Shown in pieces: positions 8,151-43,000 of a stretch of DNA of 64,000 bases; position 1 is the stretch's first letter, and each line of letters opens with the position of its first letter. A model generated the notes under the pieces. That model was not told the origin of the DNA, did no database searches, and was given only the letters and a program-made list of their open reading frames with translations. The DNA is taken from contig NZ_JASNJD010000009.1 of assembly GCF_030164425.1 (NCBI RefSeq), forward strand, positions 1-64,000. Reading direction: 5' to 3'. The DNA is from Pseudodonghicola flavimaris. GTDB lineage: Bacteria; Pseudomonadota; Alphaproteobacteria; Rhodobacterales; Rhodobacteraceae. The position numbers and the translations under genes are program-made.

Positions 8151-8899
8151 CCCTGTGCGGAGGAGATCGTCGCCTGGTCCGGGCGGCCCGCCTCCCGGTC
8201 GGTCGCCTCGGTCACCGCGTCGAGCTGGGCCTGGAACGCCAGCCGCAGGGCCTCCAGCTCGGCGTCATCGGCCTTGCGCGGCACGCTGCCGGTCCATTCC
8301 TCGCAGCGCATCACCCCGCGTGAAAATGGCGCCGGCAGCCACATCCGGTCCCAGGTGGGAAATTCCACCACCCGGTTGGCGGAAAAGCTGACCGCGAAGA
8401 CCCGTTTGCCGGAGCTGCGGGCCCAGACCAGCGGCACGGTGGAGCTGACCCGTGCCGGGCCGCGCGGCCCGTCGGCGGCAATGCCGACCGAGATGCCCTG
8501 TTTCATCCGCCGCAGCACTTCGCGCGACAGCGCCACATGGCGGCGGTTCGACGACATCGCCACATTCTCCCAGCCGAAGCGGCCCAGCAGCACCCCGACC
8601 ATGCGCCCGGCGCGGGCCGCCGAGGTCAGCGAACAGATGGGGCCCAGCCTGTTGTCGAACATGAAAGGCGCCATCATCAGCCGCTGGTGCCAGACCACGA
8701 AGATCACCGGCTCACCGGCCCGCAGCGCCGCATCCATCGGCTCGAATCCCTCCCGCCGCCAGCGCGAGGTCGCATGGGCGAAGCGGATATAGCCGGAGAA
8801 CAGCCCGGTCACGATCCGCGAGAAGGTCTCGCTGTCGGCGATCTTTTTCCGCAGGCTCACGGGCTGGGGGTCCTTTCGTCTTGCTGTGCGCCCACTCAT
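8147..8899 (-). CDS. Lysophospholipid acyltransferase family protein (DUF374)
   Basis: A 250-residue protein of the DUF374 type, related to LpxL/LpxM-like acyltransferases. Visible marks are VIFVVWHQRLMMAPF with the probable catalytic His, a central SSNRRHVALSREVLRRM segment and the conserved GIAADGPRGPA. Family members are thought to act on lipid A or phospholipid intermediates at the inner membrane; the substrate here is unknown. The start at 8899 gives a basic N terminus before the first amphipathic helix. It is divergent from tRNA-Trp. Confidence 0.85.
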   Translation of the reverse strand: MSGRTARRKDPQPVSLRKKIADSETFSRIVTGLFSGYIRFAHATSRWRREGFEPMDAALRAGEPVIFVVWHQRLMMAPFMFDNRLGPICSLTSAARAGRMVGVLLGRFGWENVAMSSNRRHVALSREVLRRMKQGISVGIAADGPRGPARVSSTVPLVWARSSGKRVFAVSFSANRVVEFPTWDRMWLPAPFSRGVMRCEEWTGSVPRKADDAELEALRLAFQAQLDAVTEATDREAGRPDQATISSAQG

Positions 8900-9944: not shown

Positions 9945-10683
9945 TTACATCATCTGCACGGTCGGGCGCATCAGGATCTCGCTGATATCGACATCTTCGG
10001 GCTGGCTCACCGCATAGATCACGCCGCGGGCGAAGCTGTCTGCCGGGATCGCCGACTGGTCGTAGAACTCCGCCATGCCCTTCTGGATGTCCTCCGAACG
10101 GATCGATTGGACCAGTTCGGTGGCGATGGCGCCGGGCGACAGGACGGTGACGCGGCCGCCCCAGTCCTTCACCTCCTGGCGCAGCGATTCCGCGATCGCG
10201 CGCACCCCGAATTTCGTCGCGCTGTAGACGGCGCCGATCGGCGTGCAGACATGCCCGGCGACCGAGGAGACGAAGATGTTCTGGCCCGAGCCCTGTGCCT
10301 TCATGATCGGCAGAACCGCCCCGAGGCCGTAAAGCACGCCTTTCAGGTTCACGTCGATGCACTGGTCCCATTCATCATGGCGGTTTTCCACCAGCGGGGC
10401 AAAAGGGCATCACGCCGGCATTGTGCAGCATCACGTCGATCCGGCCATAGGTGTCGCGGGTGGCGGTCACGAAGGCTGCCAGCGCCTCCCGGTCGGTGAC
10501 GTCGACCTGCGCGGCAAAGGCGTTGTCGGCGCCGAGCTCTTCCACCAGCGCGTCCAGCTTGTCCTTGCGGCGGGCGCCCAGGGCGACCTTGGCGCCGGCC
10601 CGAACCAGATAGCGGGCGGTCTCCGCCCCCAGACCGGAACTGGCACCGGTGACTACGACGATCTTGCCCTCTACGTTTTCCAT
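9945..10683 (-). pseudogene. Short-chain dehydrogenase/reductase with a frameshift
   Basis: Two frames together form one SDR of about 245 residues. The N-terminal part starts MENVEGKIVVVTGASSGLG (cofactor motif) and runs to HNAGVMPF. The C-terminal part continues ENRHDEWDQCIDVNLKGVLY with the active-site SSVAG and YSATKFG. The frames switch at the run AAAA at 10401-10404; removing one A restores MPFAPLVENRHDEW, the expected family sequence. Either the gene is inactive or the base is a sequencing error. It lies just downstream of the CRISPR array on the opposite strand. Confidence 0.8.
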
Positions 10684-19474: not shown

Positions 19475-20746
19475 TCAGAACAGGGCGCGGGGGATGAACA
19501 GGGTAAGTTGCGGGATCAGCGCGATCGAGGCCAGCACCAGCAGGCAGATACCGATCAGCGGCATCGCTTCGCGGATCACCCGGGTCACCGGCTCGCCCGA
19601 GATCGCCGAGGCGATGAACAGCAGGATCCCAACCGGCGGCGTTGCCATCCCGACCACCACGTTCAGAACCACGACGGTGCCGAACTGGACCGGGTCCATG
19701 CCGATCAGCGCCTGGAACTTCAGCAGGATCGGCATCGTCAGGATCAGGATCGAGATCGGTTCGAGGAACATGCCCAGGATCAGCAGGAAGATGTTCAGCA
19801 GCAGCAGGATCAGCCAGGGATTATCGGTCAGCGACAGCATCAGGTCGGCGATCAGCTGCGGCACGTGTTCCAGCGTGAAGACGAAGGACACGATGCTGGC
19901 CATCGAGGTGATGAAGAGGATCGAGGCCGAGACCAGTGCGGTGGCGACCAGGGCCTCCCAGACCCGCTGGAGCGTCAGGTCGCGGTAGACGAAACCGATG
20001 ACCAGCGCATAGGCAACCGCCACTGCCGCGGCCTCGGTCGGGGTGAAGATGCCGGCCTTGATCCCGACCAGGATGATCAGCGGCAGGATCAGCGCCGGCA
20101 GGGTCCGTTTGGTCGCGGCGAACCGCTCCCGGCCGTTCACCCGCGGCGTCACCGGAAAGCCGTCGCGCTTGGCGCGGTAGCTGGCATAGATCAGGAGCCC
20201 GGCAGCGATGCCGATACCGGGGATGACGCCGGCCAGGAACAGCTGTCCGATCGAGGCGCCGGAGAGCACGCCGTAGATGATCATGGTGATCGACGGCGGG
20301 ATGATCGGCCCCATCACCGAGCTGACGGCAATCAGCGCGGCGGCATAGGCTGGCGGCATTCCCTGTTTCGACATCGAGGGGATCAGGATGGCGCCGAGGG
20401 CGGAGGCCTCGGCGGTGGCGCTGCCGGAGATCCCGGCGAAGAACCCCGAGGACAGGATCGAGACCGAGGACATGCCGCCGCGCCGGTGCCCGACCATGGC
20501 ACGGGCGAAGGTCACGATCCGCTCAGTGACGCCGCCGACATTCATCAGTGCGCCGGCCAGCAGGAACAGCGGGATGGTCAGCAGGACGAACTGGTCGACG
20601 CCGGCGATCATCCGTTGCGGCAGCATCAGCATCATCATGCCGTTGCCGGAGAAATAGAGATAGGCGGTGCCGGCGATGCCAAGGGCCAGCGCGATCGGGA
20701 TGCCCGAGACCAGAAACCCGGCGAAAAGGATGAAGAAGCTTCCCAT
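19475..20746 (-). CDS. dctM: TRAP transporter large permease subunit, system 1
   Basis: A 423-residue protein with about 12 membrane helices in the DctM arrangement: GIPIALALGIAG near the N terminus, SGSATAEASALGAILIPSM, and GVLSGASIGQLFLAGVIPG with the PPS segment IIPPSITMIIY. It forms the Na+-driven channel of a tripartite ATP-independent transporter with DctQ and DctP. Its start overlaps the DctQ stop by ATGA. The substrate is unknown. Confidence 0.93.
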   Translation of the reverse strand: MGSFFILFAGFLVSGIPIALALGIAGTAYLYFSGNGMMMLMLPQRMIAGVDQFVLLTIPLFLLAGALMNVGGVTERIVTFARAMVGHRRGGMSSVSILSSGFFAGISGSATAEASALGAILIPSMSKQGMPPAYAAALIAVSSVMGPIIPPSITMIIYGVLSGASIGQLFLAGVIPGIGIAAGLLIYASYRAKRDGFPVTPRVNGRERFAATKRTLPALILPLIILVGIKAGIFTPTEAAAVAVAYALVIGFVYRDLTLQRVWEALVATALVSASILFITSMASIVSFVFTLEHVPQLIADLMLSLTDNPWLILLLLNIFLLILGMFLEPISILILTMPILLKFQALIGMDPVQFGTVVVLNVVVGMATPPVGILLFIASAISGEPVTRVIREAMPLIGICLLVLASIALIPQLTLFIPRALF

Positions 20747-21318
20747 CAGGCTTGCACCTCATTGTCATCAGGGAGCGACCGGTCGTCGTTGTCGATCAGC
20801 TCGCGGCGGAAGGTGACGGCCAGATCGGCCAGCACGTGCAGCGACATCAGCGCCAGCCCGACGGTGACCGAGAAATAGACCCATTTGATCGACACGCCGA
20901 GCGCGTCGCCGGTGAGCGCGGTCCAGATGAAATCGAGCGCCGGAATGGTCTGGCGGTCGAAGCGCGAGGCGAAATCGTATCCGTACCAGGCCATCGCCAC
21001 CAAGAAGGTCACGATCGGCACCGCCATGATGGCGCGCAGGATCCATTTGCCCCGAGGCGGCAGCATGGCGGGAAGGAACTCCAGCGCGACGAAGCCGTTT
21101 CGGGAATAGACCAGCCCCAGCACCAGGAAGGTCTGCCAGATCAGCAGATAGCGGCACAGCTCCTCCGCCCAGATCAGGCTGGAGCCGAGCACGTATCGGT
21201 AAAAGACCTGCGCGATCATGATGCCGACGATCAGCGCCATGCTGACGCCGGCCAGGAATTGGATCAGACGCACGTAATGCGCGACCGCTTTTGACAGTGT
21301 TGTGGTAAATCTGGTCAT
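20746..21318 (-). CDS. dctQ: TRAP transporter small permease subunit, system 1
   Basis: A 190-residue protein with four predicted helices and the DctQ signature AEELCRYLLIWQTFLVLGLVY. It begins MTRFTTTLSKAVAHYVRLIQF at 21318; the frame continues upstream but without homology. It lies 59 bases downstream of dctP and overlaps dctM. Confidence 0.9.
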   Translation of the reverse strand: MTRFTTTLSKAVAHYVRLIQFLAGVSMALIVGIMIAQVFYRYVLGSSLIWAEELCRYLLIWQTFLVLGLVYSRNGFVALEFLPAMLPPRGKWILRAIMAVPIVTFLVAMAWYGYDFASRFDRQTIPALDFIWTALTGDALGVSIKWVYFSVTVGLALMSLHVLADLAVTFRRELIDNDDRSLPDDNEVQA

Positions 21319-21377
21319 CGGTTCAGGCCGTTTGGCGACCGGACCCTGGGCGGGGTTGCCCGGGTCCGGTGCCGGGA

Positions 21378-22376
21378 TCAGGAAGCTTGCGACGCGGCGG
21401 CGACAAGGCCGGCGATCAGCGGGTCCTTGGCGGCCCATTCCTGGGTCATGCCGGCGACGCGGGCGCGCATCTCGGGCAGATCGGTCAGTTCGCGGATCTC
21501 GACGCCCTTGGCCTTCAGCTCGTCGCGGCCGGCAAGATCTTGTTCCTTGGCGTAGGTCAGCGTCTTGCTGATCGAGCGGCGTCCGGCTTCGGTCACGGCG
21601 GCCTTTTCCTCGTCGTTCAGGCCGTCCCAATAGTATTGCGACATCAGCGTGGCCATGTGCCAGGGGTAGTGGCCGGTCAGGGTGAAGTGCTTGCCGACTT
21701 CCCAGAGGTTTTCGCCCAGCATCGACGACACATTGATTTCCACCGCGTCGATGACGCCGGTTTCCAGCGCGCCGTAGACCTCGCCATAGGGCAGGCCGAC
21801 GGGTTCGGTGCCGACGGTTTCCCAGATCTCCTTGTGCAGAGGGACCGGCACGATGCGGGTTTTCAGCCCGGCGAAGTCGGGCAGGCTGGACACCGGTTTC
21901 TTGACCGACAGGAAATGCCGCTGCCCGGTGTCCGCCGTGGCCAGGCCGATCAGCCCGGCCTCGGCCAGATCGGCCTGAATCTTCTGGCCGGCCTCGCCCA
22001 GGGCGAGTTCGCCGAAGTGATCGTAATCGCGGACCAGGAAGGGAAGTTGCCAGGCATTCATGCCCTGACGCCCGGTCACCAGCGGGATCAGGACGCCGGA
22101 GACGCTGACCACATCCATGGTGCCGGCGACGGCGCCTTCGAGAAGCTGCTTGTCACCGCCGAGCTGCCGGTTCGGGAAGATCTGGGTCCGGAAGGCACCC
22201 GGCATCAGCTCCTCGAGCCCCTCGGCAAAGCTGGTGGCGAGGATATGGCCCGGGTGGACCTCGTTCGCGGCATGCGCGATGCGCAGGGTCTTGCCCGCGG
22301 CGCGGGCGACATGCGGCATGGCCAGGGTCGCGCTCAGGGCGACGCCGGACTGCAAAAGGGTTCTTCTGGTGATCAT
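21378..22376 (-). CDS. dctP: TRAP transporter solute-binding protein, system 1
   Basis: A 332-residue periplasmic binding protein with signal peptide MITRRTLLQSGVALSATLA, whose RR suggests Tat export, and the DctP fold. Recognisable parts are LRIAHAANEVHPGHILA, PFLVRDYDHFGELAL and ALETGVIDAVEINVSSML. DctP proteins bind organic acids through a conserved Arg; the ligand cannot be named from sequence. It follows the cupin gene by 72 bases. Confidence 0.92.
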   Translation of the reverse strand: MITRRTLLQSGVALSATLAMPHVARAAGKTLRIAHAANEVHPGHILATSFAEGLEELMPGAFRTQIFPNRQLGGDKQLLEGAVAGTMDVVSVSGVLIPLVTGRQGMNAWQLPFLVRDYDHFGELALGEAGQKIQADLAEAGLIGLATADTGQRHFLSVKKPVSSLPDFAGLKTRIVPVPLHKEIWETVGTEPVGLPYGEVYGALETGVIDAVEINVSSMLGENLWEVGKHFTLTGHYPWHMATLMSQYYWDGLNDEEKAAVTEAGRRSISKTLTYAKEQDLAGRDELKAKGVEIRELTDLPEMRARVAGMTQEWAAKDPLIAGLVAAASQAS

Positions 22377-31948: not shown

Positions 31949-33151
31949 ATGAGCTGGATCGCCGAGATCCCCTATGGTGCCTATTGGAGCACGCCATTCG
32001 CCAAGTGGCAGGGCAGTTTTGCCGGCCTGCACAGTATCGAGTTCGCCGCCCATGTCGCCCGCCGCGAACTGGCGGCCCGCGATATCGCGCCGGAGCGGAT
32101 CGACTATGGCGTGCTGGGCACATCGGTGCCGCAGAAAGGCAGCTTCTACGGCCTGCCCTGGCTGACCGGGATGATCGGGGCCGGCCATGTCGGCGGGCCG
32201 ACGATCTCTCAGGCCTGCGCCACCGGGGCGCGGATCATTCAGGCCGGGGCGCAGGAAATCCAGGCCGGCGGGGCCGATGTGGTGCTGGCGGTGGCGGCGG
32301 ACCGGACGTCGAACGGGCCGCATCTCTATTATCCGGCGCCTGCCGGGCCGGGCGGAACCGGGGTGGCCGAAAACTGGGTTCTCGACAATTTCAACCACGA
32401 CCCGCTCGGCGGGCATCCGATGCTGGAGACGGCGGAGAATGTGGCGCGGAAATACGGCATCGGCACCGAAGAGCAGCACGCGCTGGTGTTGCAGCGGAGC
32501 GCCCAGTACCAGGCCGCCTGCGCCGATGACCATGCGTTTCACCGCCGCTACATGAGCCTGCCGTTCGAGGTGCCGAAACCGGGATTTGCCGCCGTCTCGC
32601 ACCGGCTGACCGGGGACGAGGGGGTGATCCCGGGCGATGCGGCGAAGCTGCGGGCGCTGAAGCCGGTGCAGCGGGGCGGCACCGTCACCTATGGCGGCCA
32701 GACCCATCCCGCCGACGGATCGGCGGGGATGATCCTGACCACACCGGCGCGCGCGGCGGAGCTCAGCCGCGATCCGGCGATCCGCATCCGGTTGCTGGGC
32801 TTCGGTCTGGCGCGCACCGAACTGGCCCATATGCCGGAGGCGCCGGTCCGGGCGGCAGCGCGGGCGTTGCAGGCGGCGGGGCTGGAGATCGGGGCGATCG
32901 ACGCGGTGACCTCGCACAATCCCTTCGCCGTCAACGACATCGTTTTCGCCCGAGAGACCGGCTTCGATCCTGGGCGGATGAACGCCTTCGGCTGTTCGCT
33001 GATCTGGGGGCATCCGCAGGCCCCCACCGGTCTGCGCGCCACCATCGAACTGATCGAGGAACTGGCGTTGCGGGGGGGCGGGCATGGTCTGTTTCAGGGC
33101 TGCGCGGCGGGGGACACCGCCATGGCGCTGGTGCTGAAGGTCGGCGCCTAG
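31949..33151 (+). CDS. Thiolase family protein 1
   Basis: A 400-residue thiolase fold. The nucleophilic Cys is in ISQACATGARI (Cys90), and the later motifs are SHNPFAVND (His323), IWGHPQAPTGLR (His355) and FQGCAAGDTAM (Cys385). This is a full catalytic set for acyl-CoA cleavage or condensation with CoA. It lies 28 bases after the ligase gene and is followed by a second, dissimilar thiolase; they could act in series or as partners. Confidence 0.88.
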   Translation: MSWIAEIPYGAYWSTPFAKWQGSFAGLHSIEFAAHVARRELAARDIAPERIDYGVLGTSVPQKGSFYGLPWLTGMIGAGHVGGPTISQACATGARIIQAGAQEIQAGGADVVLAVAADRTSNGPHLYYPAPAGPGGTGVAENWVLDNFNHDPLGGHPMLETAENVARKYGIGTEEQHALVLQRSAQYQAACADDHAFHRRYMSLPFEVPKPGFAAVSHRLTGDEGVIPGDAAKLRALKPVQRGGTVTYGGQTHPADGSAGMILTTPARAAELSRDPAIRIRLLGFGLARTELAHMPEAPVRAAARALQAAGLEIGAIDAVTSHNPFAVNDIVFARETGFDPGRMNAFGCSLIWGHPQAPTGLRATIELIEELALRGGGHGLFQGCAAGDTAMALVLKVGA

Positions 33152-33210
33152 GCGGACTGCAGGACAGGGACAACACGCGGAAAACCCGCGGACCTACGGG
33201 GAGAGACGGA

Positions 33211-34461
33211 ATGGATGTGTTTCTGATCGGGGCGTTCACCTCGCCCTTCGGCAAGCGGCCCGAGGCCGACTTCAAGGCGCTGACGCGGGAGGCGGTGACA
33301 GGGGTTCTGGCGGATGCGGGCCTGGATGACGGGCGGGCGATCGACACCGTTCACTTCGCCAACAGCTTCATGCACCACTGGGGGCAGCACCTGATCCGAG
33401 GCAACGTCTGCCTCGCCCCGCTGGTGGAGGCCGGGCTGTTGCTGCGGCACACGCCGGTGTTCAACGTCGAAGGCGCCTGTGCCGGCGGCTCCATCGCCTT
33501 TCGCGGCGCGGTGAACGAGGTGCGGGCCGGCAGCGCGCGGCTGGCACTGGCCGTCGGGGTGGAAAAGCTGTTCGATCCGGACAACCCGACGGTGATGCAG
33601 CAGCTGTTCGACGGCGGTTTCGACAGTTTCGACCGGGATCGCTGGATGCGTGAATACCGGGATACGGCGGCGGCTGCCGGGTTCCCCTATGCACCGGGGC
33701 CGGGTCGGCCGGTGACCATGGATACCTATGCGATCCAGGCCGCCTGGCACATGGCGACCTATGGGACCACCGTCGAGCAGATCGCTGCCGTCGCGGCGAA
33801 GAACCATGCGCATGCGGTGCATAACCCCAAGGCGCAATACCGCACGGCAATGACCGTCGAGCAGGTCCTGGCGGACAAGCCCATCGCCGCGCCGCTCACC
33901 CGCGCCATGTGCGCCCCGATGAGTGACGGCGCGGCGGCGGTGCTGGTCTGCGACGGTGCCACGCTGGCGACCCTGCCGGCGGTCACCCGGCAGCGGGCGG
34001 TGCGGCTGCGCGCCAATGTGTTCACCGGCGGCTCGTTCCGGCAGGCCGAGGAGCCCAGCCTGACGCGGCCGGCGGTCGACCGGGCCTATGCGATGGCGGG
34101 TCTGGGACCGGAGGATATCGACGTGGTCGAGGTCCATGACGCGACCTCCTTTTGCGAGATCTACCAGACCGAGATGCTGCGCCTGTGTCCGGAGGGGGGC
34201 GGCGGCGCCTTCGCCGCGGCGGGGGAAACCGCACTGGGCGGCCGGGTGCCGGTCAACCCGTCGGGCGGGCTGGTGTCCAAGGGGCATCCGCTGGCGGCCA
34301 CCGGTCTCAGCATGCTGACCGAACTGGTGACGCAGCTGCGCGGCGAGGCTGGCGCGCGCCAGGTCGCGGGCGCGCGGATCGCCCTGCAACAGAACGGCGG
34401 CGGGACCCTCGGGCTGGAGGAGGCGGTCTGCTCGATCACCATTCTGGAGCGCCGCGGCTGA
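33211..34461 (+). CDS. Thiolase family protein 2 (SCP2-like)
   Basis: A 416-residue thiolase of the SCP2/lipid-transfer type. It has VEGACAGGS (Cys90), VEVHDATSF (His309, in place of the usual NEAF/SHN motif) and NPSGGLVSKGHPLAATG (His359). The C terminus GGTLGLEEAVCSITIL carries a Cys in a changed context, common in this subgroup. The family includes enzymes that split branched or cyclic side-chain CoA esters. It lies 59 bases after thiolase 1. Confidence 0.87.
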   Translation: MDVFLIGAFTSPFGKRPEADFKALTREAVTGVLADAGLDDGRAIDTVHFANSFMHHWGQHLIRGNVCLAPLVEAGLLLRHTPVFNVEGACAGGSIAFRGAVNEVRAGSARLALAVGVEKLFDPDNPTVMQQLFDGGFDSFDRDRWMREYRDTAAAAGFPYAPGPGRPVTMDTYAIQAAWHMATYGTTVEQIAAVAAKNHAHAVHNPKAQYRTAMTVEQVLADKPIAAPLTRAMCAPMSDGAAAVLVCDGATLATLPAVTRQRAVRLRANVFTGGSFRQAEEPSLTRPAVDRAYAMAGLGPEDIDVVEVHDATSFCEIYQTEMLRLCPEGGGGAFAAAGETALGGRVPVNPSGGLVSKGHPLAATGLSMLTELVTQLRGEAGARQVAGARIALQQNGGGTLGLEEAVCSITILERRG

Positions 34462-34551
34462 ACCCGCGATGCGCCGGCTGATACCGGGCCAAACAGATAC
34501 AGACCCAATGAAATGCCAAATCAAAATCACATAAACCTTCGGGAGGTATTC

Positions 34552-35604
34552 ATGAACATTCGCAAGACATTGGCCGCCTTTGCCCTGATCGCCGGTGGCT
34601 GGGGGGCGGTTGCCGCGCCGGCGCAGGCCGAAGATCAGGTCACCTTTTCCTTCGCCACCTGGGTGCCGCCGGGCTATCCGCCGCTGTTTGCCGGGCTGAC
34701 CCCCTGGATGGACTCGATCGCGGCGGAGTCCGAGGGCTCCATCGCCTTCGAGCTTTACGAAGGCGGGGCGCTCGGCAAGGCCAAGGACCACTATGACATG
34801 GCCGCCAGCGGCATCGCCGATATCACCTGGATCGTCCCCGGCTACACCCCCGGCCGGTTCCCGATCCTGGAGCGGGTGGAGTTGCCGTTCACCTTCGCCG
34901 CCTCCGCCGCGGCGGCAGGGGCGGCGGCGCAGGCGTGGTATGCCCCCTTCGCCGCCGAGGAGATGGCCGAGGTCAAGCTGCTCTTGCTGCATACCAATGC
35001 CTTCGGCACGTTCCACACCAAGGATCTCGAAATCCGCCGGCCCGGCGATATCAGCGGCCGCACGGTGCGCCCGGCCAATGCCGGCATCGCCAAATGGGTC
35101 AGTGCGCTCGGCGGATCGTCGGTGCCGATCCCGGCGCCGGAGGCCACCGATGCGCTGTCGCGCGGCACGGTCGACGCGATTTCGCTGCAATGGGACACGC
35201 TGCGCGATTTCGGTATCGACCGCGCCGCGCGCACCCACACCGACGGCAAGTTCTATACCTCCTTCTTCGCCATCGTGATGAACAAGGCGGCCTGGGGCCG
35301 GTTGTCCGAAGCGCAGCGCGCGGTGATGGAGCATCACATGACCCCGGAATGGGCCGGGCGGGTGACCGCCGGCTGGGAAGAGGTGGACGCCAGGGGGATC
35401 GCCGCGCTCAAGGCCGAGGCGGCCGCGGGCAAGCGCAGGATCGTCGAGTTGAGCGATGCCGACCGCCAGGCCTGGCGCGACACGGTCGCGCCGCTGCGGG
35501 CGGCCTGGGCCTCGGAGGTCGCCGAACGGACCGGCCGCGATGCCGCCGCCATCGAGGCCGCGCTTCAGGCCAGTATCCTGTCGCATGGCGCGGGCGGGAA
35601 CTGA
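34552..35604 (+). CDS. dctP: TRAP transporter solute-binding protein, system 2
   Basis: A 350-residue protein with a signal peptide (MNIRKTLAAFALIAGGWGAV, cut after AQA) and DctP features: FSFATWVPPGYPPL, ELYEGGALGKAKDHYDM and the ligand-contact region around GRTVRPANAGIAKWVSALG. ATG at 34552, with GGGAGG before it, is preferred to the earlier in-frame ATG at 34513. The ligand is probably the acid activated by the upstream CoA ligase. Confidence 0.9.
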   Translation: MNIRKTLAAFALIAGGWGAVAAPAQAEDQVTFSFATWVPPGYPPLFAGLTPWMDSIAAESEGSIAFELYEGGALGKAKDHYDMAASGIADITWIVPGYTPGRFPILERVELPFTFAASAAAAGAAAQAWYAPFAAEEMAEVKLLLLHTNAFGTFHTKDLEIRRPGDISGRTVRPANAGIAKWVSALGGSSVPIPAPEATDALSRGTVDAISLQWDTLRDFGIDRAARTHTDGKFYTSFFAIVMNKAAWGRLSEAQRAVMEHHMTPEWAGRVTAGWEEVDARGIAALKAEAAAGKRRIVELSDADRQAWRDTVAPLRAAWASEVAERTGRDAAAIEAALQASILSHGAGGN

Positions 35605-36118
35605 GCGCGTGCTGTTGCGGCTGATCGACCGCATCATGGAGGTCGTGCTGTCGGTCAGCGCGGCCATCCTGTTGCTGATCGCGGTGCTCACCTTCGTTTC
35701 CGTCCTGATGCGCTATCTCTTCGTGATGCCGATCCCGGACCACTACGACATCTCCCGCCTGACCATGGCGGTGCTGATCGGCTGGGGCACCGCCTATTGC
35801 TTCGCCCGCGACAGCCATATCGATGTCGATCTGCTGACCGCCCTGTTGCCGGTGCGGGGGCAGCGCGGGCTCTGGGGGGTGACGTCGCTCCTCAGCCTGG
35901 GGTTCCTGGCGGCGGTTGCGGTGCTGCTCTGGCGCCACGGGCTGGCGCTCAGGGCATCGGGCGAGGGCACCTTCGATCTGGGGCTGCCGGTCTGGCCGTG
36001 GATTCTGGCTACCTCCGCCGGGTTCGGGGCGGGGGCGCTGACTCTGCTCCTGCGGCTGGTGGCGGCCTGCTGCAGCCCCGGGGCGGGGCGACATCGGGAG
36101 GCAGCGCATGGATCGTGA
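35585..36118 (+). CDS. dctQ: TRAP transporter small permease subunit, system 2
   Basis: A four-helix DctQ protein of about 177 residues. Helix 1 is VVLSVSAAILLLIAVLTFVS, helix 2 contains VLIGWGTAYCFARDSHIDVD, and two more helices follow. The start at 35585 overlaps dctP by 20 bases; GTG at 35609 is an alternative that removes eight residues. The stop overlaps dctM. Confidence 0.82.
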   Translation: MARAGTERVLLRLIDRIMEVVLSVSAAILLLIAVLTFVSVLMRYLFVMPIPDHYDISRLTMAVLIGWGTAYCFARDSHIDVDLLTALLPVRGQRGLWGVTSLLSLGFLAAVAVLLWRHGLALRASGEGTFDLGLPVWPWILATSAGFGAGALTLLLRLVAACCSPGAGRHREAAHGS

Positions 36119-37412
36119 AACCATCGGGCTTGTCGGCTTTGCCGGGCTCTTCGTGCTGATCGCGCTGCGGGTGCCGATCGGTGTTGCCATGAGCGTGGTG
36201 AGCCTGGCAGGCTTCGCCGCCATCGTCGGCCTCGACCCGGCGTTGCAGACCCTGCCGCTGGCGACGCTGAACGCGCTGGCGAACTGGGAATTCGGGCTGA
36301 TTCCGCTGTTCATCCTGATGGGAGCGGTCGCCTCCGAAGCCGGGATGAGCCGGGCGCTCTATCGCGCGGCCAATTTCTGGATCGGCCATCTGCGCGGCGG
36401 GCTGGCCATGGCGACCATCGTCTCGGCGACCGGCTTTGCCGCCATCTGCGGCTCCTCGGTCGCCACCGCCGCGACGATGACGCGGATCGCCCTGCCGGAG
36501 CTGGAGCGCAACCGCTATCCGCAGGTGCTGTCGCTGGGTTCGATCGCCGCCGGCGGGACGCTGGGCATCCTGATCCCGCCCTCGGTGCCGTTGGCGATCT
36601 ACGGGATCATCACCCAGACCGACATCGGGCTGCTGTTCATGGCGGGACTTCTGCCGGGGCTGCTGGCGGCGGCGCTCTATCTGCTGACCATCTATCTGTG
36701 GCGCCGGGTCGGCGGGCTCGAGCTGAAGGCGCGCCGGCCGGCGGGCGCGCGGGCGCGGTGCAAATCTCTGCTGCTGGTGCTGCCGACGCTGGGGCTGTTC
36801 GCGGTGGTGATGGGCGGCATCTATGCCGGTGTCTTCACTGCGACTGAGGCGGCGGGTGTCGGCGCTGCCGCCGCCATCGTCATCGGGGTGGTGCAGCGCA
36901 AGCTGCCGCGCGCGGCTCTGCTGCGGGCCCTGCGCGAAACGGTGGCGACCTCGTCCTCGCTGTTTCTGGTGCTGATCGGGGCGCTGCTGTACGGGCGGTT
37001 CCTGGCGGTGACCCGGCTGCCGCAGATGCTGAACGGCACCGTCGAGGGGTTCGGCCTGTCCCCGCTGGCCACGATCCTGGTGCTGCTGGGGGTCTTCGTG
37101 CTGCTGGGCTGCGTGCTGGATGCGATGGCGATCCTGCTGCTGATGGTGCCGCTGGTGATGCCGCTGGTCGGGGCCTATGGCTTCGATCCGGTCTGGTTCG
37201 GGATCGTGACGGTGATGGTGATCGAGCTGGGGCTGATCACGCCGCCCATCGGCATGAACATCTTCGTCATCCGCTCGGTCCGGCCGGAGGCGCCGCTGGG
37301 GGCGATCTATCGCGGTGTCATGCCCTTTGTCGCGATGGATGTGCTGCGGGTGCTGCTGGTGGTCTTCATTCCCGCGATTGCCCTGATCCTGCCGCGGGCG
37401 ATGGGCTACTAG
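36108..37412 (+). CDS. dctM: TRAP transporter large permease subunit, system 2
   Basis: A 434-residue DctM channel protein with about 12 helices. Signatures are RVPIGVAMSVVSLAGF, CGSSVATAATMTRIALPEL, TLGILIPPSVPLAIYGI and the C-terminal GLITPPIGMNIFVI. It overlaps dctQ by 11 bases, so translation is coupled. It ends the MarR unit, facing the racemase gene. Confidence 0.92.
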   Translation: MDRETIGLVGFAGLFVLIALRVPIGVAMSVVSLAGFAAIVGLDPALQTLPLATLNALANWEFGLIPLFILMGAVASEAGMSRALYRAANFWIGHLRGGLAMATIVSATGFAAICGSSVATAATMTRIALPELERNRYPQVLSLGSIAAGGTLGILIPPSVPLAIYGIITQTDIGLLFMAGLLPGLLAAALYLLTIYLWRRVGGLELKARRPAGARARCKSLLLVLPTLGLFAVVMGGIYAGVFTATEAAGVGAAAAIVIGVVQRKLPRAALLRALRETVATSSSLFLVLIGALLYGRFLAVTRLPQMLNGTVEGFGLSPLATILVLLGVFVLLGCVLDAMAILLLMVPLVMPLVGAYGFDPVWFGIVTVMVIELGLITPPIGMNIFVIRSVRPEAPLGAIYRGVMPFVAMDVLRVLLVVFIPAIALILPRAMGY

Positions 37413-37416
37413 CAGC

Positions 37417-37448
37417 GTGCGGGGGCCTCATGTCCGGGGCCCCCGCAC
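37417..37448. terminator. Convergent terminator hairpin between dctM and the racemase-like gene
   Basis: Perfect 11-bp stem GTGCGGGGGCC/GGCCCCCGCAC around a 10-base loop. It lies between two converging genes, includes the racemase stop codon in its loop, and could act in both directions. No T run is present on either side. Confidence 0.5.
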
Positions 37449-38084
37449 CATGATCTCGGCCTGCCGCACCGCGCAGCTGAGACCGTCGAGCACGGGGACC
37501 GGCAGGGCGGGGGCAAGCTGCCGGGTCATGCCGGCGGTAATGGCGCCGCCGAGAACGAGGACATCGGGCGCCTCGCGGTCGAGGACATCGCGCGCCAGCT
37601 GCAGCATGTCCCGGGCGGTGCCGGCCGGATCGCGGTGGCTTTCCAGCACACCGCGGTCGAGCGCATGGATGCCGCTCAGCCGTTGCCCGATGCCATATGC
37701 CGACGCCAGCTTGCGGATGCCGCCGACGGCAGAGGGGGCGACCGTCAGGATGGAAAACCGCGCACCGAGCATGCAGGCATGGAACATCGCCGCCTCGGCG
37801 ATGCCGATCACCGGAAAGGCGACCTCACGGCGAATCGCCATCAGGCCGGGGTCGCTGAAGCAGGCGATGACCGCGGCATCATACTGGGCGGCGGCGCCGG
37901 TGATCGCAGCATGGGTGGCCTGCGCGGCGATCTCCACATCCGCCGGCGTCTCGATCGCGGCGGGCCCGAAGGGGGCGGTGACCGCGGTGATCCGGGTTTC
38001 GCGGCGCACCACAGCCGCCGCCTCGGCCTGCAGCAGCGCGGTGATCCCGACGGATGTATTGGAATTGACGATCAGCAGATCCAT
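37428..38084 (-). CDS. Aspartate/glutamate/hydantoin racemase family protein
   Basis: A 218-residue protein of PF01177 type. It begins MDLLIVNSNTSVGIT and keeps the first catalytic region ACFSDPGL with Cys75. At the second site, where two-base racemases have a Cys (LGCAG), it reads VLVLGGAITAG (Gly at 179-180). So it may not be a two-cysteine racemase; an isomerase or decarboxylase is possible. ATG at 38084 is chosen because upstream frame is a low-complexity repeat. It follows the deacetylase gene in the GntR operon. Confidence 0.78.
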   Translation of the reverse strand: MDLLIVNSNTSVGITALLQAEAAAVVRRETRITAVTAPFGPAAIETPADVEIAAQATHAAITGAAAQYDAAVIACFSDPGLMAIRREVAFPVIGIAEAAMFHACMLGARFSILTVAPSAVGGIRKLASAYGIGQRLSGIHALDRGVLESHRDPAGTARDMLQLARDVLDREAPDVLVLGGAITAGMTRQLAPALPVPVLDGLSCAVRQAEIMVRGPRT

Positions 38085-38100
38085 CGCCGCGCCCTCGGGC

Positions 38101-38136
38101 CTGTCACCGGGCCTGTCACCGTGCCTGTCACCGGGC
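38101..38136. repeat. Three tandem copies of a 12-bp unit
   Basis: CTGTCACCGGGC, CTGTCACCGTGC and CTGTCACCGGGC follow each other directly. They lie in the short gap between the deacetylase and racemase-like genes and reach 9 bases into the deacetylase 3' end. The unit keeps the frame (12 bases), so copy changes would not shift any reading frame. Confidence 0.7.
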
Positions 38137-39060
38137 GCTGGCCGACCAGCGGGGCAGGCCGGCGGCGGCTCTCCACGCATGGGCGATCTCGGCGCGGGTG
38201 GCGAACCAGACACTGCCTTGGGTGGTCATGTGCTCCAGCAGCTTTTGCAGGCCGGCGATCCGGCCGGGACGGCCGATGATGCGCTGATGCAGGCCGACGG
38301 ACATCATCCTGGGCTGCTGCTCGGCCTCCTGCCGCAGCCAGTCGAAGGCATCGGCGCAATAGCGGGTGAAATCGCTGCCGAAGACGAAACCGCCACCGGG
38401 GCTGAACCGCATGTCGTTGGTGTCGAAACTGTAGGGCAGGATCACATGCGGTCTGCCGGCGGGCGCGACGACATAGGGCAGATCGTCGTTGTAGGCATCG
38501 GAATCATAGAGAAACCCACCGTGTTCGCAGAGCAGCCGGCGGGTATTGACCGAGGCCGCAGAGCGGGTGTGCCAGCCCACCGGGGCGGTGCCGGCGATCC
38601 GGGTCAGGCTGTCGACGCTGCGCGCGATCACCGCGGCCTCCTGCGTCGGGTCCATGCCGGCGTGGCGCTCCCACCTGTATCCATGGCAGGAGATCTCGTG
38701 ACCACGGGCGGCGGCCTCGGCGATCAGCTCGGGCGCGCGCTCTGCGGCGCGGGCGCAGGTGCTGATCGTGGCCCGGATGCCGTGGGCCTCCAGCAGGCCC
38801 AGGATGCGGTCGAACCCGACGCGGGGGCCGTATTCGAAATGCGAGGTCATGCAGGGGTCGGGTGCGCCCGTCACTTCCTCCCGCACCTCGTAGACGGGTT
38901 CGTTGCGTTCGTCGCCATCGGCGATCGACAGCTCTGCGCCTTCCTCGAAATTCAGCACGAAAGAGACGGCCAGACGGGCGCCGTTGGGCCAGGCCACATC
39001 GGGGCGGTGGCCGCGGTAGCCGAGGAAATCGCGCCGGGCGAGGGGCGGCGCGGCGGTCAA
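38128..39060 (-). CDS. Polysaccharide deacetylase family protein, allantoinase (PuuE)-like
   Basis: A 310-residue NodB-homology protein. Motifs NFEEGAE, GHEISCHGYRWERH, GWHTRSAASVNTRRLL and FLYDSDAYNDDLPY match the PuuE/cyclic-amide-hydrolase branch more than sugar deacetylases. PuuE opens the allantoin ring without the usual amidohydrolase metals; the substrate here could be a related cyclic amide. Its start overlaps the gntR stop by 4 bases and it belongs to the same operon. Confidence 0.82.
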   Translation of the reverse strand: MTAAPPLARRDFLGYRGHRPDVAWPNGARLAVSFVLNFEEGAELSIADGDERNEPVYEVREEVTGAPDPCMTSHFEYGPRVGFDRILGLLEAHGIRATISTCARAAERAPELIAEAAARGHEISCHGYRWERHAGMDPTQEAAVIARSVDSLTRIAGTAPVGWHTRSAASVNTRRLLCEHGGFLYDSDAYNDDLPYVVAPAGRPHVILPYSFDTNDMRFSPGGGFVFGSDFTRYCADAFDWLRQEAEQQPRMMSVGLHQRIIGRPGRIAGLQKLLEHMTTQGSVWFATRAEIAHAWRAAAGLPRWSASAR

Positions 39061-39755
39061 TCCGGGCGCTCCAGGTGGGCGAAGGCCGTCGCCAGCGCCT
39101 GGGATTTGCGGCGGTCGCCGCCGAGGTCGAGGCTGTCCATCACATCCTGCAGGTGATGCCGCATGGCATGGGCGGCGGCGTTCTCGTCACCTGCGGCGAT
39201 CTTGTCGATCAGATCGGCGTGACCTCCGAGCGAGCAGCCCGAGGACGCCGGCCGCTGATAGAGCGCCACCACGAGGCTGTCGCGCGAAACCAGTTCGCGC
39301 ACCATCTCTGACACCACGTCGTTGCCGGTGATGCGCGCCAGCTCGCAGTGGAATTCCCCGGTCAGCCGATGGGCACGGGCGCCGTTCCGGCGGTCCCGCG
39401 CGCTTTGTTCCTCGGCGACGATATCGCGCAGCATCCGGATGTGTCGCGGCTGGGCCAGACGGGTCGCGGCGCGGATGACGCCTTCTTCGATGATCTGCCG
39501 GGCCGCGTTCACGGTGCGCGCCTCTTCGACCGAGGGGCGGGCGACAAAGGCGCCGCGCATCGGTTCGATCACCACGATCTTCTGATCGGCGAGCCGGTGC
39601 AGGATCGGCCGGATCCGTGTCTTGCTGACGCCGAACACCTTGCCCAAATCGTCCTGGCCGAGCTTCTCCCCGGGAGAGAGCCGGCCTTCGACAATGGCAT
39701 CGAAGATCTCGTGGTGGATTTCATCGTCGGTCATCGGTTCCGTCTTGGACGTCAT
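39057..39755 (-). CDS. GntR family regulator (FadR/FCD subfamily)
   Basis: The 232-residue protein has an N-terminal winged helix (IVEGRLSPGEKLGQDDLGKV then FGVSKTRIRPILHRL) and a helical FCD domain with the metal-type His residues in TGEFHCELARI, GGHADLIDKI and MRHHLQDV. Such regulators bind organic acids. It is divergent from TRAP system 3, and identical 12-bp palindromes lie at both ends of the gap. Confidence 0.92.
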   Translation of the reverse strand: MTSKTEPMTDDEIHHEIFDAIVEGRLSPGEKLGQDDLGKVFGVSKTRIRPILHRLADQKIVVIEPMRGAFVARPSVEEARTVNAARQIIEEGVIRAATRLAQPRHIRMLRDIVAEEQSARDRRNGARAHRLTGEFHCELARITGNDVVSEMVRELVSRDSLVVALYQRPASSGCSLGGHADLIDKIAAGDENAAAHAMRHHLQDVMDSLDLGGDRRKSQALATAFAHLERPD

Positions 39756-39767
39756 GATTTAGCTCAG

Positions 39768-39779
39768 ATCGTATACGAT
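39768..39779. promoter_or_regulatory. GntR operator 1, ATCGTATACGAT
   Basis: Perfect 12-bp palindrome, 12 bases outside the gntR start codon. The identical sequence recurs at 39978-39989, 210 bases away on the other side of the intergenic region, which suggests one regulator bound at both. Confidence 0.7.
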
Positions 39780-39977
39780 AATTAAGTGCTTTCGCGTACT
39801 ACCTTTGCCGCGAAAAGTGCCGTTATGCAAGGCCTCGTGCCTGACGCGGACCGGGATTCGGATGGAAGCCTGCCATATTCACCTATTTTTCCGTCAAATT
39901 TCGAAGGTCGAGCCGGAAATTGCCGGTTTCCTGCGCAAATGCTCGCGTCAGGGCGAAAAGGGCGCAATCTTTATCAT

Positions 39978-39989
39978 ATCGTATACGAT
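39978..39989. promoter_or_regulatory. GntR operator 2, ATCGTATACGAT
   Basis: Second perfect copy of the palindrome, about 90 bases before dctP of TRAP system 3. The remaining intergenic sequence (39780-39977) has no gene I can support; the two sites could be bridged by a DNA loop. Confidence 0.7.
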
Positions 39990-40079
39990 TATTCTTGCAA
40001 ATGTGATCCGATTGGGCTGCGCTGGCGCCATTCTCCCGCAAGACGGGACATAAAAACGATCAGACAGGGAAGATAAGCA

Positions 40080-41066
40080 ATGAAAGTCATTCGGAAGACC
40101 AAGACACTTCTCGCGGCGGCGGCTCTCATCGCCTCTGCCGGCGCGGCAACGGCGGAAACCAGCTGGACCATGGCCAGCGGCTATGCCGACAGCAACTTCA
40201 TGACCCAGAACATCCGCAAGTTCATCGAGGATGTTCAGAGCTCCTCGGGCGGGGCGCTGACGATCTCGCTGCATTCCAACGGTACGCTGATGAAGCTCGA
40301 TGCGATCCGGCGTGCGGTGCAGACGGATCAGGTGCAGATCGGGGAAATCCGTCTCGGCTCCTATTCCAACGAGGACCCGATGTACAACCTGGCCGGGCTG
40401 CCCTTCGTGGCCGGGGATTACGATAGCGCCTGGAAGCTGATGCAGGCGCAGAAGCCCTATTTCGATACGCTCTTCGACAAGATCGGTCTGAAGGTTCTGG
40501 CCTATCAGCCCTGGCCGGGGCAGGGCTTCTATACGAAGTTCCCGGTGACCGGTCTGGCCGATTTCAAAGGGCAGAAGCTGCGGATCTATTCCAAGGCGAC
40601 GCAGGACATGGGCAACTCCCTGGGGTTCGAGGCGACGATCCTGCCCTTTGCGGAAATCCCGCAGGCCTTCGCGACCGGCCTGATCGACGCGTTGTTCACC
40701 AGCCCGCAGACCGGTATCGACATCCAGGCCTGGGATAACACCGACTACTTCACCGCCGCCGGCGCGATGTACACCAAGAACGCCATCGTGGTGAACAAGG
40801 ATGCCTTCGAGGCGCTGCCCGAAGAGGTGAAGGCGGCTCTGGTCGCGGCCGGCGAGACGGCCACCAAGCGCGGCTGGGACATGAGCAAGGAGACCTATGC
40901 CAAGCAGCTCGGCATTCTGCGGGAAAATGGCATGACGGTTGCGGATGCGCCCGAGGAAGTGATCGCGAAACTGAAAGAGATCGGCCTGACCATGATGGCG
41001 GACTGGCAGGCCTCCGCCTCGCCCGAAGCGATCGCGGTTCTGGACGCCTACAAGGCCGGCCTCTGA
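40080..41066 (+). CDS. dctP: TRAP transporter solute-binding protein, system 3
   Basis: The 328-residue protein has a signal peptide (MKVIRKTKTLLAAAALIASA, cut near ATA-E) and the DctP fold: SWTMASGYADSNFMTQNIRK, RAVQTDQVQIGEIRLGSYS, GQKLRIYSKATQDMGNSLG and the ligand-site region PQAFATGLIDALFTSP. It is the first gene of a dctPQM operon divergent from gntR, so the ligand should be the compound degraded by the deacetylase and racemase-like protein. Confidence 0.93.
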   Translation: MKVIRKTKTLLAAAALIASAGAATAETSWTMASGYADSNFMTQNIRKFIEDVQSSSGGALTISLHSNGTLMKLDAIRRAVQTDQVQIGEIRLGSYSNEDPMYNLAGLPFVAGDYDSAWKLMQAQKPYFDTLFDKIGLKVLAYQPWPGQGFYTKFPVTGLADFKGQKLRIYSKATQDMGNSLGFEATILPFAEIPQAFATGLIDALFTSPQTGIDIQAWDNTDYFTAAGAMYTKNAIVVNKDAFEALPEEVKAALVAAGETATKRGWDMSKETYAKQLGILRENGMTVADAPEEVIAKLKEIGLTMMADWQASASPEAIAVLDAYKAGL

Positions 41067-41148
41067 GCGATTTCATGACGTGTGGCCCGCTTCCGGCTTC
41101 GGCCGGGAGCGGGAAATTCTCGAATGAAATCTGTTTGGAGGTGTGTGA

Positions 41149-41673
41149 ATGCGTAGCGGTCTTGATCTTCTCTATCGGCTGAGCGGCGGCCTGGCGGCCT
41201 TCTTCCTGATGATGATCGCGGTCACCATCGTCGCGCAGATCGTCGGGCGCGCCGTCGGCGTCACCATCGATTCGACGGAAAGCGGCGGCTTCTTCCTGGC
41301 CGGGACCACCTTCATGGGCATGGCCTATACGCTGAAGACCGGCGGTCATATCCGGGTGTCGCTGCTGGTGTCGCGGCTGAGCGGTGCCGCCGCCCGGGGG
41401 GCCGATATCCTGGCCTGTGGCTTCGCCGCATTCGGCAGCGCCTACCTGTGCTGGGAAACCTACGGGATGACCCATGATTCCTGGCGCTTCGGGGACCTGA
41501 GCCCGGGGCTGCTGGCGGTGCCGATCTGGATTCCGCAATCGGTGATGCTGGCCGGGCTGGTTCTGCTGACCATCGCCCTGATCGACGACCTGATCCTGCT
41601 GCTGCGGGGCGCCATCCCGGGGTTCGCCGCGCCGCATGAAACGGCGCTGGACGGGATCGAGCAGGGCGAATGA
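41149..41673 (+). CDS. dctQ: TRAP transporter small permease subunit, system 3
   Basis: A 174-residue DctQ protein: helix 1 LAAFFLMMIAVTIVAQIVGR, helix 2 with FFLAGTTFMGMAYTLKTGGH, and two C-terminal helices. GGAGGTG precedes the start. It lies 82 bases after dctP. Confidence 0.9.
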   Translation: MRSGLDLLYRLSGGLAAFFLMMIAVTIVAQIVGRAVGVTIDSTESGGFFLAGTTFMGMAYTLKTGGHIRVSLLVSRLSGAAARGADILACGFAAFGSAYLCWETYGMTHDSWRFGDLSPGLLAVPIWIPQSVMLAGLVLLTIALIDDLILLLRGAIPGFAAPHETALDGIEQGE

Positions 41674-41695
41674 GGCGACGGGGAAAGGAAATGCA

Positions 41696-43000
41696 ATGGA
41701 TGTTCTGACGACGACCGGCATTCTCGGCCTCGTGCTGCTGGTGCTGCTGGCCGGTGGGCTGTGGATCGGGGTCACGCTGATGGCGGTGGGGTATGTCGCG
41801 CTCGCCGCCTTCTCGCCGGCGCCGGCGGGATCGCTGATGGCGACCACGCTGTGGGATCACAGTTGGAACTGGGCGTTGACGGCACTGCCGCTTTTCGTCT
41901 GGATGGGAGAGATCCTGTTTCGCGCCCGGTTGTCCGAGGACATGTTCGCCGGGCTCGCCCCCTGGCTGGACCGGCTGCCGGGTCGGCTTCTGCACGTCAA
42001 TATCGTCGGCTGCGGCGTGATGGCGGCGGTGGCGGGGTCCTCGGCGGTGACGGCGGCGACGGTCGGACGGATGAGTCTGCCGGAGCTGAAGCAGCGCGGC
42101 TACAGCGAAACCATGTCGATCGGCACGCTGGCGGGCTCCGGCACGCTGGGCCTGCTGATCCCGCCGTCGATCATGATGATCGTCTACGGCATTTCGGCAC
42201 AGCAATCGATCTCGCGGCTGTTTATCGCCGGCATCGTGCCGGGGTTGCTGATCATGGCGCTCTTCATGGGCTATGTGATGATCTGGTCCGCCTTCAACCG
42301 TGGCGCGGTGCCGCCGGCGGGCCCGCGCCTGCCGCTGGCCGAGAAGCTGCGCCGGTCGCGCCGGCTGCTGCCGGTGCTGCTGCTGATCGTGGCGGTGATC
42401 GGGTCGATCTACGGCGGTTATGCCACCCCGACCGAAGCGGCGACGCTGGGCGTGTTCGGGGCGCTGGGGCTGGCGGCGGTGGCGCGGGCGCTGAGCTGGC
42501 AGAGCTTCGTCGACAGCCTGATGGCGGCGACCCGTACCAGCTGCATGATCATCGCCATCATTCTGGGTGCCGCCTTTCTCTCTGTCGGCATGGCGTTTCT
42601 GGGCATTCCGGCGACGCTGGCCAACTGGGTGTCGGCGCAGGGGCTGTCGCCGGCGATGCTGTTGGTGCTGCTCACGCTGATCTACGTCGTGCTGGGCTGC
42701 TTTCTCGAAGGCGCCTCGATGATCGTGCTGACCACCTCGGTGGCGCTGCCGATGGTGGTTGAGGCCGGTTTCGATCCGGTCTGGTTCGGGATCTACCTGA
42801 TCGTCGTGGTCGAGATGGCGCAGCTGACGCCGCCGGTGGGGTTCAACCTGTTCGTGCTGCACGGGATGAGCGGTCGCGACATGTGGACGGTGACCAAGGC
42901 GTCGGCCCCCTTCTTCGGGCTGCTCACGCTCGGGGTTGCCCTGCTGGCCCTGGTGCCGGAGCTGGCGACCTTCCTGCCGCAGCTGATGCTGGCGCGTTGA
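41696..43000 (+). CDS. dctM: TRAP transporter large permease subunit, system 3
   Basis: A 434-residue DctM protein with the standard helices. It shows AGSSAVTAATVGRMSLPEL, GTLGLLIPPSIMMIVYGIS, GYATPTEAATLGVFGALG and LTPPVGFNLFVLHGM. ATG at 41696 is preceded by GGGAAAGGAA; the in-frame ATG at 41636 lies within dctQ and is rejected. It is the last gene of system 3. Confidence 0.93.
   Translation: MDVLTTTGILGLVLLVLLAGGLWIGVTLMAVGYVALAAFSPAPAGSLMATTLWDHSWNWALTALPLFVWMGEILFRARLSEDMFAGLAPWLDRLPGRLLHVNIVGCGVMAAVAGSSAVTAATVGRMSLPELKQRGYSETMSIGTLAGSGTLGLLIPPSIMMIVYGISAQQSISRLFIAGIVPGLLIMALFMGYVMIWSAFNRGAVPPAGPRLPLAEKLRRSRRLLPVLLLIVAVIGSIYGGYATPTEAATLGVFGALGLAAVARALSWQSFVDSLMAATRTSCMIIAIILGAAFLSVGMAFLGIPATLANWVSAQGLSPAMLLVLLTLIYVVLGCFLEGASMIVLTTSVALPMVVEAGFDPVWFGIYLIVVVEMAQLTPPVGFNLFVLHGMSGRDMWTVTKASAPFFGLLTLGVALLALVPELATFLPQLMLAR

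Follow-up and report, generated by a model that had tools for sequence, protein, structure and literature searches.

A divergent TRAP transporter cassette in Pseudodonghicola flavimaris pairs a PuuE-like hydrolase with a racemase-family protein lacking one catalytic cysteine

Closest described systems and the shared operators of the cassette

The described systems that come closest to the locus studied here, a six-gene cassette at positions 37428–43000 of a 64,000-nt stretch of Pseudodonghicola flavimaris DNA (the window), are the Klebsiella hpxSAB genes, the allantoin racemases, PuuE allantoinase, arylmalonate decarboxylase (AMDase), the Bordetella pertussis receptors DctP6 and DctP7, and the ectoine clusters. 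The cassette consists of two divergent arms: RAC (a racemase-family protein), DEAC (a PuuE-like hydrolase) and a GntR/FCD-family regulator on the minus strand, and the receptor and permeases (DctP, DctQ and DctM) of a tripartite ATP-independent periplasmic (TRAP) transporter on the plus strand (Table 1). The boundaries are exactly those of the initial annotation, and family matches confirmed each gene, including the PF01177 protein that it had placed in the left arm and the complete TRAP system in the right. DEAC starts at a TTG codon that overlaps the GntR stop codon in TTGA (39057–39060).

The left arm has the same three kinds of gene as Klebsiella hpxSAB, which we take to comprise a GntR regulator, an allantoin racemase and a PuuE-type allantoinase; hpxSAB would differ from the cassette in having no TRAP genes. 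The Klebsiella racemase, KpAllR, also has both catalytic cysteines (Cys79 and Cys184; PMC12661438). The Bordetella receptors were solved with 5-oxoproline, which DctP7 binds with a dissociation constant of 0.3 µM (PMC13274462 and PMC12344293); the same papers cite Rucktooa 2007 for a pyroglutamic-acid-binding DctP subfamily. The Bordetella genes lie near a eukaryotic-type 5-oxoprolinase gene (PMC13274462), whereas the partners of the window receptor are DEAC and RAC. In the ectoine clusters (uehABC or ehuABCD, eutABCDE and enuR), as set out in PMC5924519, a cyclic acid enters through a TRAP or an ATP-binding cassette (ABC) transporter, the regulator belongs to the GntR superfamily and EutA is described as a racemase. 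The cassette resembles these clusters in its predicted cyclic-acid importer, its GntR-superfamily regulator and its racemase-labelled protein, but it is not a member of the group: EnuR is of the MocR/GabR type with pyridoxal phosphate, and the available section of that paper mentions no PuuE-like enzyme.

The two arms carry the same putative operator. The 12-mer ATCGTATACGAT is a perfect palindrome; the 5.31-Mb genome has two exact copies of it, which both lie in the region separating the arms, so the identical 12-bp operators noted by the initial annotation occur nowhere else in the genome as exact copies; three copies with one mismatch lie elsewhere in it. Two matches at up to one mismatch were found in 0 of 100 dinucleotide shuffles of the window. 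The CTTGCAA that follows the dctP-side copy is also present in all three relatives compared. Among eight cassettes, the window included, seven have two intergenic sites matching at least 10 of the 12 positions, and the score of the second site was reached by 0 or 1 of 2000 base shuffles; the eighth (L057) has one perfect site, and its second-site score was reached by 1271 of 2000. The regulator matches both of the families expected of a GntR/FCD protein and is the candidate for binding ATCGTATACGAT, whose sites are conserved. Co-regulation of both arms is a well supported prediction.

The cassette recurs in other genomes. RAC relatives (E ≤ 1e-20) were found in 72 of 295 genomes of the family, with identity above 60% only in the genome under study and in three others, and these three have the same six genes in identical arrangement. 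A scan of 84,980 species genomes, in which the best 80 of 257 confirmed relatives were kept, gave a complete cassette for seven of those 80, the three family genomes among them, and hence for eight genomes with the window. For gene clustering at the collected loci a codon-position gene caller was used. The seven carriers are Pseudooceanicola antarcticus, Anianabacter salinae, Albibacillus kandeliae, Chachezhania sediminis, Poseidonocella sp., a Pararhizobium metagenome-assembled genome (MAG) and a Rhodospirillales MAG (L056); the last holds the most distant cassette, with TRAP proteins 37–58% identical and an amidohydrolase between DEAC and RAC. Because the operators are common to both arms and the same six genes stand together in eight genomes, the arms belong together, and we regard a co-regulated uptake-and-catabolism cassette as nearly certain. 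A literature search, which reached few subscription papers, turned up no publication on it, and since the gene set recurs in other bacteria the cassette may well stand for a nutrient pathway that has yet to be described. Less of it is new than the initial annotation supposed in speaking of a new use for both families: the pyroglutamate-binding DctP subfamily dates from 2007, PuuE-type allantoinase was reportedly described in 2008, and the ectoine systems precede it as well.

Table 1. Genes and predicted operators of the cassette in window coordinates
Feature	Position	Strand	Length	Matches and remarks
RAC, Asp/Glu/hydantoin-racemase-family protein	37428–38084	-	218 aa	PF01177 E 2.8e-44
DEAC, PuuE-like polysaccharide-deacetylase-fold hydrolase	38128–39060	-	310 aa	PF01522 E 1.1e-14; TIGR03212 E 9.7e-92
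GntR/FCD-family regulator	39057–39755	-	232 aa	PF00392 and PF07729
Predicted operator ATCGTATACGAT	39768–39779		12 bp	12 bp from the GntR start codon
Predicted operator ATCGTATACGAT	39978–39989		12 bp	upstream of dctP; CTTGCAA a few bases on
DctP, TRAP solute receptor	40080–41066	+	328 aa	PF03480; 2pfy E 8.1e-76, 2pfz E 1.2e-65
DctQ, TRAP small permease	41149–41673	+	174 aa	PF04290
DctM, TRAP large permease	41696–43000	+	434 aa	PF06808; TIGR00786 above cut-off

The receptor and the deacetylase

The nearest solved chains to DctP are those of Bordetella DctP6 and DctP7 (2pfy and 2pfz), which places it nearest to the 5-oxoproline-binding subfamily. In TRAP receptors of this family one arginine selects carboxylates (PMC4646407), and the arginine of the DctP motif KGQKLR aligns with that of 2pfy and 2pfz; we read it as the probable equivalent of SiaP Arg147. 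Because the family selects carboxylates and the arginine is kept, a carboxylated cyclic amide or ureide is a likelier DctP ligand than allantoin, hydantoin or a plain lactam. The initial annotation had proposed that a cyclic amide or ureide is imported by the TRAP system and opened by the deacetylase. This interpretation appears partly supported, in that it fits both sides and the arms belong together, but its candidate ligands narrow to carboxylated rings, given the selectivity of the receptor family.

5-Oxoproline is itself a possible ligand. Eight plasmid regions were collected by DctP similarity, and in five of them an oxoprolinase-type gene lies close by: pxpA follows two genes resembling its partner subunits in Ruegeria and Leisingera and lies one gene beyond the TRAP system in Thermus, Qingshengfaniella has one large hydantoinase B/oxoprolinase gene, and Pseudosulfitobacter has two hydantoinase/oxoprolinase genes. 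The stretches shown for Sagittula, Ponticoccus and Paracoccus contain none. At two further loci (L138, 2994–13546; L265, 951–11558) a gene annotated as PuuE, scoring 489.6 bits in L138, adjoins one TRAP system, and past a GntR gene lies a second TRAP system, of the DctP subfamily found in the window, with an M20 hydrolase and an aspartate ammonia-lyase.

DEAC resembles PuuE allantoinase in fold (structure 3cl6; phmmer E 8.4e-81, Foldseek 45% identity, TM 0.79) and in the residues Glu39, Glu40, His126, Asp192 and His258, which are invariant across 27 rows of the DEAC subfamily and three aligned PuuE-type rows. It differs from PuuE in a loop that reads GWHTRSA in the DEAC subfamily and GWYTG-R in PuuE, and in its TIGR03212 score, 307.2 bits against a cut-off of 424.6; two other subfamily members scored 287.4 and 263.2 bits. 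'Allantoinase-like', as the initial annotation had it, therefore holds for the resemblance and not for membership of the curated PuuE family. The genome also encodes a canonical PuuE–UraD fusion (526.4 bits for PuuE with TIGR03212, 200 bits for UraD). With its own loop, its score below the cut-off and a true PuuE–UraD fusion in the same genome, DEAC is unlikely to be the housekeeping allantoinase.

DEAC is uncommon, occurring in 13 of 385 genomes of the class (E ≤ 1e-85) and 5 of 398 of the phylum, the genome under study included in each. Its context was counted only at 20 loci found through DEAC, which avoids the bias of a RAC search: five plasmid records (five of the six best among 584) and 15 genome loci. 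The count leaves out L171, whose DEAC was missed by the gene caller, L266 (Methylobacterium currus, with an ABC transporter beside DEAC and no racemase annotated), and L042–L044, which duplicate L053–L055. An importer lies within 6 kb of DEAC at 17 of the 20 loci, a TRAP system of the same family at five (one of them, L156, showing DctP only because the contig starts there) and a Pot-type ABC transporter at 12, with neither at three. RAC lies within 6 kb of DEAC at 13 of the 20; some loci are near-copies (L161/L164 and L132/L169), so these 13 represent fewer independent events. Dihydropyrimidinase, amidase, amidohydrolase or CN-hydrolase genes are found near DEAC at several of the 20. At L162 a PF04199 cyclase-family gene (7921–8616) lies between DEAC and the TRAP genes.

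A racemase-family protein without the catalytic pair

RAC has the PF01177 fold of the allantoin-hydantoin racemase group. Its model is of high confidence (pLDDT 95.7), its nearest solved sequences are 3qvj and 5lfd, and it superimposes on Pseudomonas fluorescens allantoin racemase (5lg5) with a Z score of 34.1 over 217 residues; allantoin racemases as a group give Z 33–34, AMDase (3dg9) only Z 19.8 at 12% identity. PF01177 is the sole Pfam match at E up to 0.001, and the Pfam Amdase model PF17645 does not match. RAC shares with the Klebsiella and Pseudomonas allantoin racemases (3qvj and 5lg5) their fold, their length and an asparagine, Asn9, that we take to correspond to KpAllR Asn12 in our own numbering, as we take position 115 to correspond to Thr119. 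Asn12 of KpAllR binds the ring (PMC12661438).

It differs from them in the active site. Position 115 is Val, and the two acid-base groups are incomplete. Racemases of this group carry either two cysteines or one cysteine and an acid at +3 of the missing one, an arrangement drawn partly from the alignment with the 3qvj and 5lfd set. The window protein has Cys75 and Asp78, and its second catalytic position is Gly180 with Thr at +3, in keeping with the 'one-cysteine' label of the initial annotation; that side has no stand-in like the Glu78 of P. fluorescens allantoin racemase. AMDase is a natural single-cysteine decarboxylase of the racemase superfamily, with the opposite cysteine kept (PMC4996985): its Gly74/Cys188 arrangement is the mirror image of Cys75/Gly180, and its structural distance from RAC is larger than that of the racemases.

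The absence recurs. All 16 RAC copies at the 13 DEAC loci have Gly180; at residue 75, 12 carry Ala, three Cys and one Val. We then compared 123 RAC-family proteins picked by profile, solely from loci collected in this analysis. Only two residues occur at position 180, Cys (51 proteins) and Gly (72), with a single change on the tree. At position 115, 47 of the 51 Cys180 proteins have Thr, and 60 of the 72 Gly180 proteins have Phe or Val. Position 185 is Asp in 43 of the 51 two-cysteine proteins and Gly in 43 of the 44 Cys75/Gly180 proteins, Ala75 and Gly180 occur together in 16 of the 123, and position 78 is Asp in 122 and Glu in one. On the unrooted tree a single branch (SH-aLRT 89) separates the Cys180 proteins from the rest, and the RACs of the eight cassettes form one starred group (99); such a tree does not show whether the cysteine at position 180 was lost or gained, and several long branches make its details unsure. 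Gly180 is thus no quirk of one protein, and that the RAC partner repeatedly lacks the catalytic pair is the freshest point of this work.

Since Gly180 is found in all 16 copies beside DEAC and 13 of them also lack the first cysteine, racemisation by RAC appears doubtful, and on balance we think it rather probable that RAC is not a racemase. The lack of a stand-in on the Gly180 side and the precedent of AMDase as a single-cysteine decarboxylase suggest one-sided chemistry instead; that RAC is specifically a decarboxylase is a guess we hold with little confidence. In three Acetobacteraceae loci (L253, 6355–8261; L255, 6725–8835; L258, 3248–5148) the gene just before a Gly180/Val75 RAC encodes a conserved enolase-superfamily protein of 392 aa (a PF13378 match in L253), and the stretches contain no DEAC; this is another RAC context.

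Proposed function and alternatives

Taken as a whole, the explanation we favour, and consider fairly likely, is a GntR-controlled uptake cassette for a carboxylated ring compound that is opened by DEAC, with RAC acting from one side. GntR would repress both arms and release them upon binding an inducer, either the substrate or an intermediate. DctPQM would import a small ring compound shaped like 5-oxoproline, with a carboxylate beside an amide N–H, such as a carboxylated hydantoin or another cyclic ureide acid; that the substrate is a carboxylated cyclic amide or ureide is probable. DEAC would hydrolyse the amide of this ring in the manner of PuuE acting on allantoin, and we have good confidence in ring opening as its role. 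RAC would bind the same ring or the opened product, with Cys75/Asp78 as its only acid-base group. Its favoured reaction, over other one-sided ones, would be to decarboxylate a malonate-like carbon and then protonate it, for which AMDase uses a single cysteine on the opposite side.

Several observations weigh against this explanation. The ligand known for the DctP subfamily is 5-oxoproline; the case for a ureide therefore comes from the resemblance to PuuE and from context. Of the eight cassette genomes, seven encode PxpA (PF03746) elsewhere and seven Hydantoinase_B (PF02538), with at least one of the two in each, and imported 5-oxoproline could thus be used without DEAC. No product-processing enzyme (carbamoylase, amidase or oxoprolinase) is among the six genes; among the relatives, flanking genes were annotated for L056. 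The DEAC model is of moderate confidence (pLDDT 78.4). On the tree the cassette RACs join the two-cysteine proteins (59 rows, 95, starred) and not the other 64 Gly180 proteins, so that, the tree being unrooted, Gly180 proteins need not be one branch. P. fluorescens allantoin racemase, filed as a racemase, has Gly75 and Glu78 with the other cysteine kept in the alignment, and is reportedly active with Glu78 in place of the cysteine; lack of one cysteine does not by itself end racemase activity. Many Acetobacteraceae Gly180 RACs adjoin neither DEAC nor such an importer.

The alternatives differ mainly in what they make of the two enzymes. That the arms are unrelated neighbours can practically be dismissed: both families are common and the window contains three TRAP systems, but the shared operators and the conserved six-gene set led us to reject it. 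An allantoin module like Klebsiella hpxSAB, with the TRAP system importing allantoin, would account for the same three left-arm gene kinds and for two enzymes that resemble allantoin enzymes. It is nonetheless very improbable, as the genome has its canonical PuuE–UraD fusion, DEAC falls below the PuuE cut-off, RAC lacks a catalytic cysteine, and allantoin has no carboxylate, against the receptor rule (PMC4646407). Use of 5-oxoproline, in which the TRAP system imports it, either DEAC (independently of ATP) or an oxoprolinase encoded elsewhere opens it and RAC handles the D-form, draws on the Bordetella ligand, on the five plasmid regions and on the PxpA or Hydantoinase_B genes present somewhere in all eight cassette genomes. 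We judge it improbable, since no oxoprolinase is in the cassette, DEAC belongs to the PuuE fold group and RAC, without a second cysteine, is a poor racemase candidate. Known 5-oxoprolinases also need ATP, the lactam being stable. More serious is the idea that RAC is still a racemase or epimerase in which Cys75/Asp78 works opposite a group that has escaped recognition, and that it provides the enantiomer DEAC needs, much as allantoin racemase feeds allantoinase. The fold very near the allantoin racemases, the kept ring-binding Asn9, the grouping of cassette RACs with two-cysteine proteins and the P. fluorescens enzyme, with Glu at +3 of its missing cysteine, speak for it; Thr rather than an acid at +3 of Gly180, Gly at position 185 and the proteins with both Ala75 and Gly180 speak against it, and we give it a minor share of our confidence.

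A slightly less probable alternative is that RAC resembles 2-oxo-4-hydroxy-4-carboxy-5-ureidoimidazoline (OHCU) decarboxylase and decarboxylates a carboxy-hydantoin, taken up or formed in the cell, ahead of ring opening by DEAC. It was suggested by Acetobacteraceae, in which seven loci found through RAC have DEAC beside a Gly180 RAC, with a 5-hydroxyisourate (HIU) hydrolase cluster gene at six of the seven, and three more loci have the HIU hydrolase gene beside RAC alone; three cluster members were confirmed as PF00576. UraD is present in 8 of 8 cassette genomes, a point against the idea, and absent from all 18 other genomes tested, a point for it. Over 150 Acetobacteraceae genomes a close RAC accompanies HIU hydrolase without UraD in 12 of 26 and HIU hydrolase with UraD in 4 of 48 (Fisher 3e-4), and it occurs in 2 of the 76 that lack HIU hydrolase; eight weaker RAC matches (45–51% identity) among 26 RAC matches are left out of the count. 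AMDase is again the single-cysteine precedent. Yet a close RAC is missing in 14 of the 26, RAC shows no association with UraD alone (4 of 51 genomes with UraD, 14 of 99 without, p 0.30, kinship not corrected for), and in one genome a second HIU hydrolase, encoded away from the operon, outscores the operon copy (120 against 78 bits). Since many of the RAC loci in Acetobacteraceae are not near HIU hydrolase, the association is uncorrected for kinship and none with UraD appears over the 150 genomes, we demoted OHCU decarboxylation from main explanation of the window to a rival of the one-sided ring-opening cassette. Examples of an HIU-hydrolase-family gene next to DEAC and a Gly180 RAC, or to RAC alone, are L112 (7988–10732), L080 (3674–5721) and L072 (9622–10729). 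UraD was not found in the genomes of these three loci. In L112 an AMDase-family gene (PF17645) precedes the cluster, and L134 also has a PF17645 neighbour.

Elsewhere in the window, two thiolase-fold genes directly precede a second complete TRAP system (31949–37412); its DctM gene and the RAC gene end 15 bp apart. We rejected this adjoining system (34513–37412) as part of the cassette, as its DctP, its DctM and the two thiolases are the best label of no gene in seven relatives. The third TRAP system (19475–22376, minus strand) has DctP and DctM confirmed by family match, with DctQ between them assigned by reading only. A 309-aa frame matching Glyco_tranf_2_4 (PF13704; 45830–46759) lies between rplA-like and rplJ-like frames inside a ribosomal protein cluster. 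At 9945–10683 and 11071–13457, adjacent frames resemble halves of one SDR protein and of one P-type ATPase in different frames, possibly frameshifts or errors.

Gly180 proteins are classed in the Asp/Glu/hydantoin racemase family, and because they lack the catalytic pair the racemase label may mislead. Tentatively, and with more doubt than confidence, we propose that Gly180 PF01177 proteins include an undescribed lyase that needs one base and no cofactor and probably decarboxylates carboxylated ring amides; with a PuuE-like opener of carboxylated cyclic ureides and a TRAP or ABC importer it would make up an unrecognised route paralleling the ATP-driven 5-oxoprolinase route. The cassette suggests that a TRAP receptor of the 5-oxoproline type may serve a ring-opening enzyme other than 5-oxoprolinase. 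Its single operon pair, receptor and regulator offer a testable handle, and the ligand of the receptor would name the substrate of two enzyme families.

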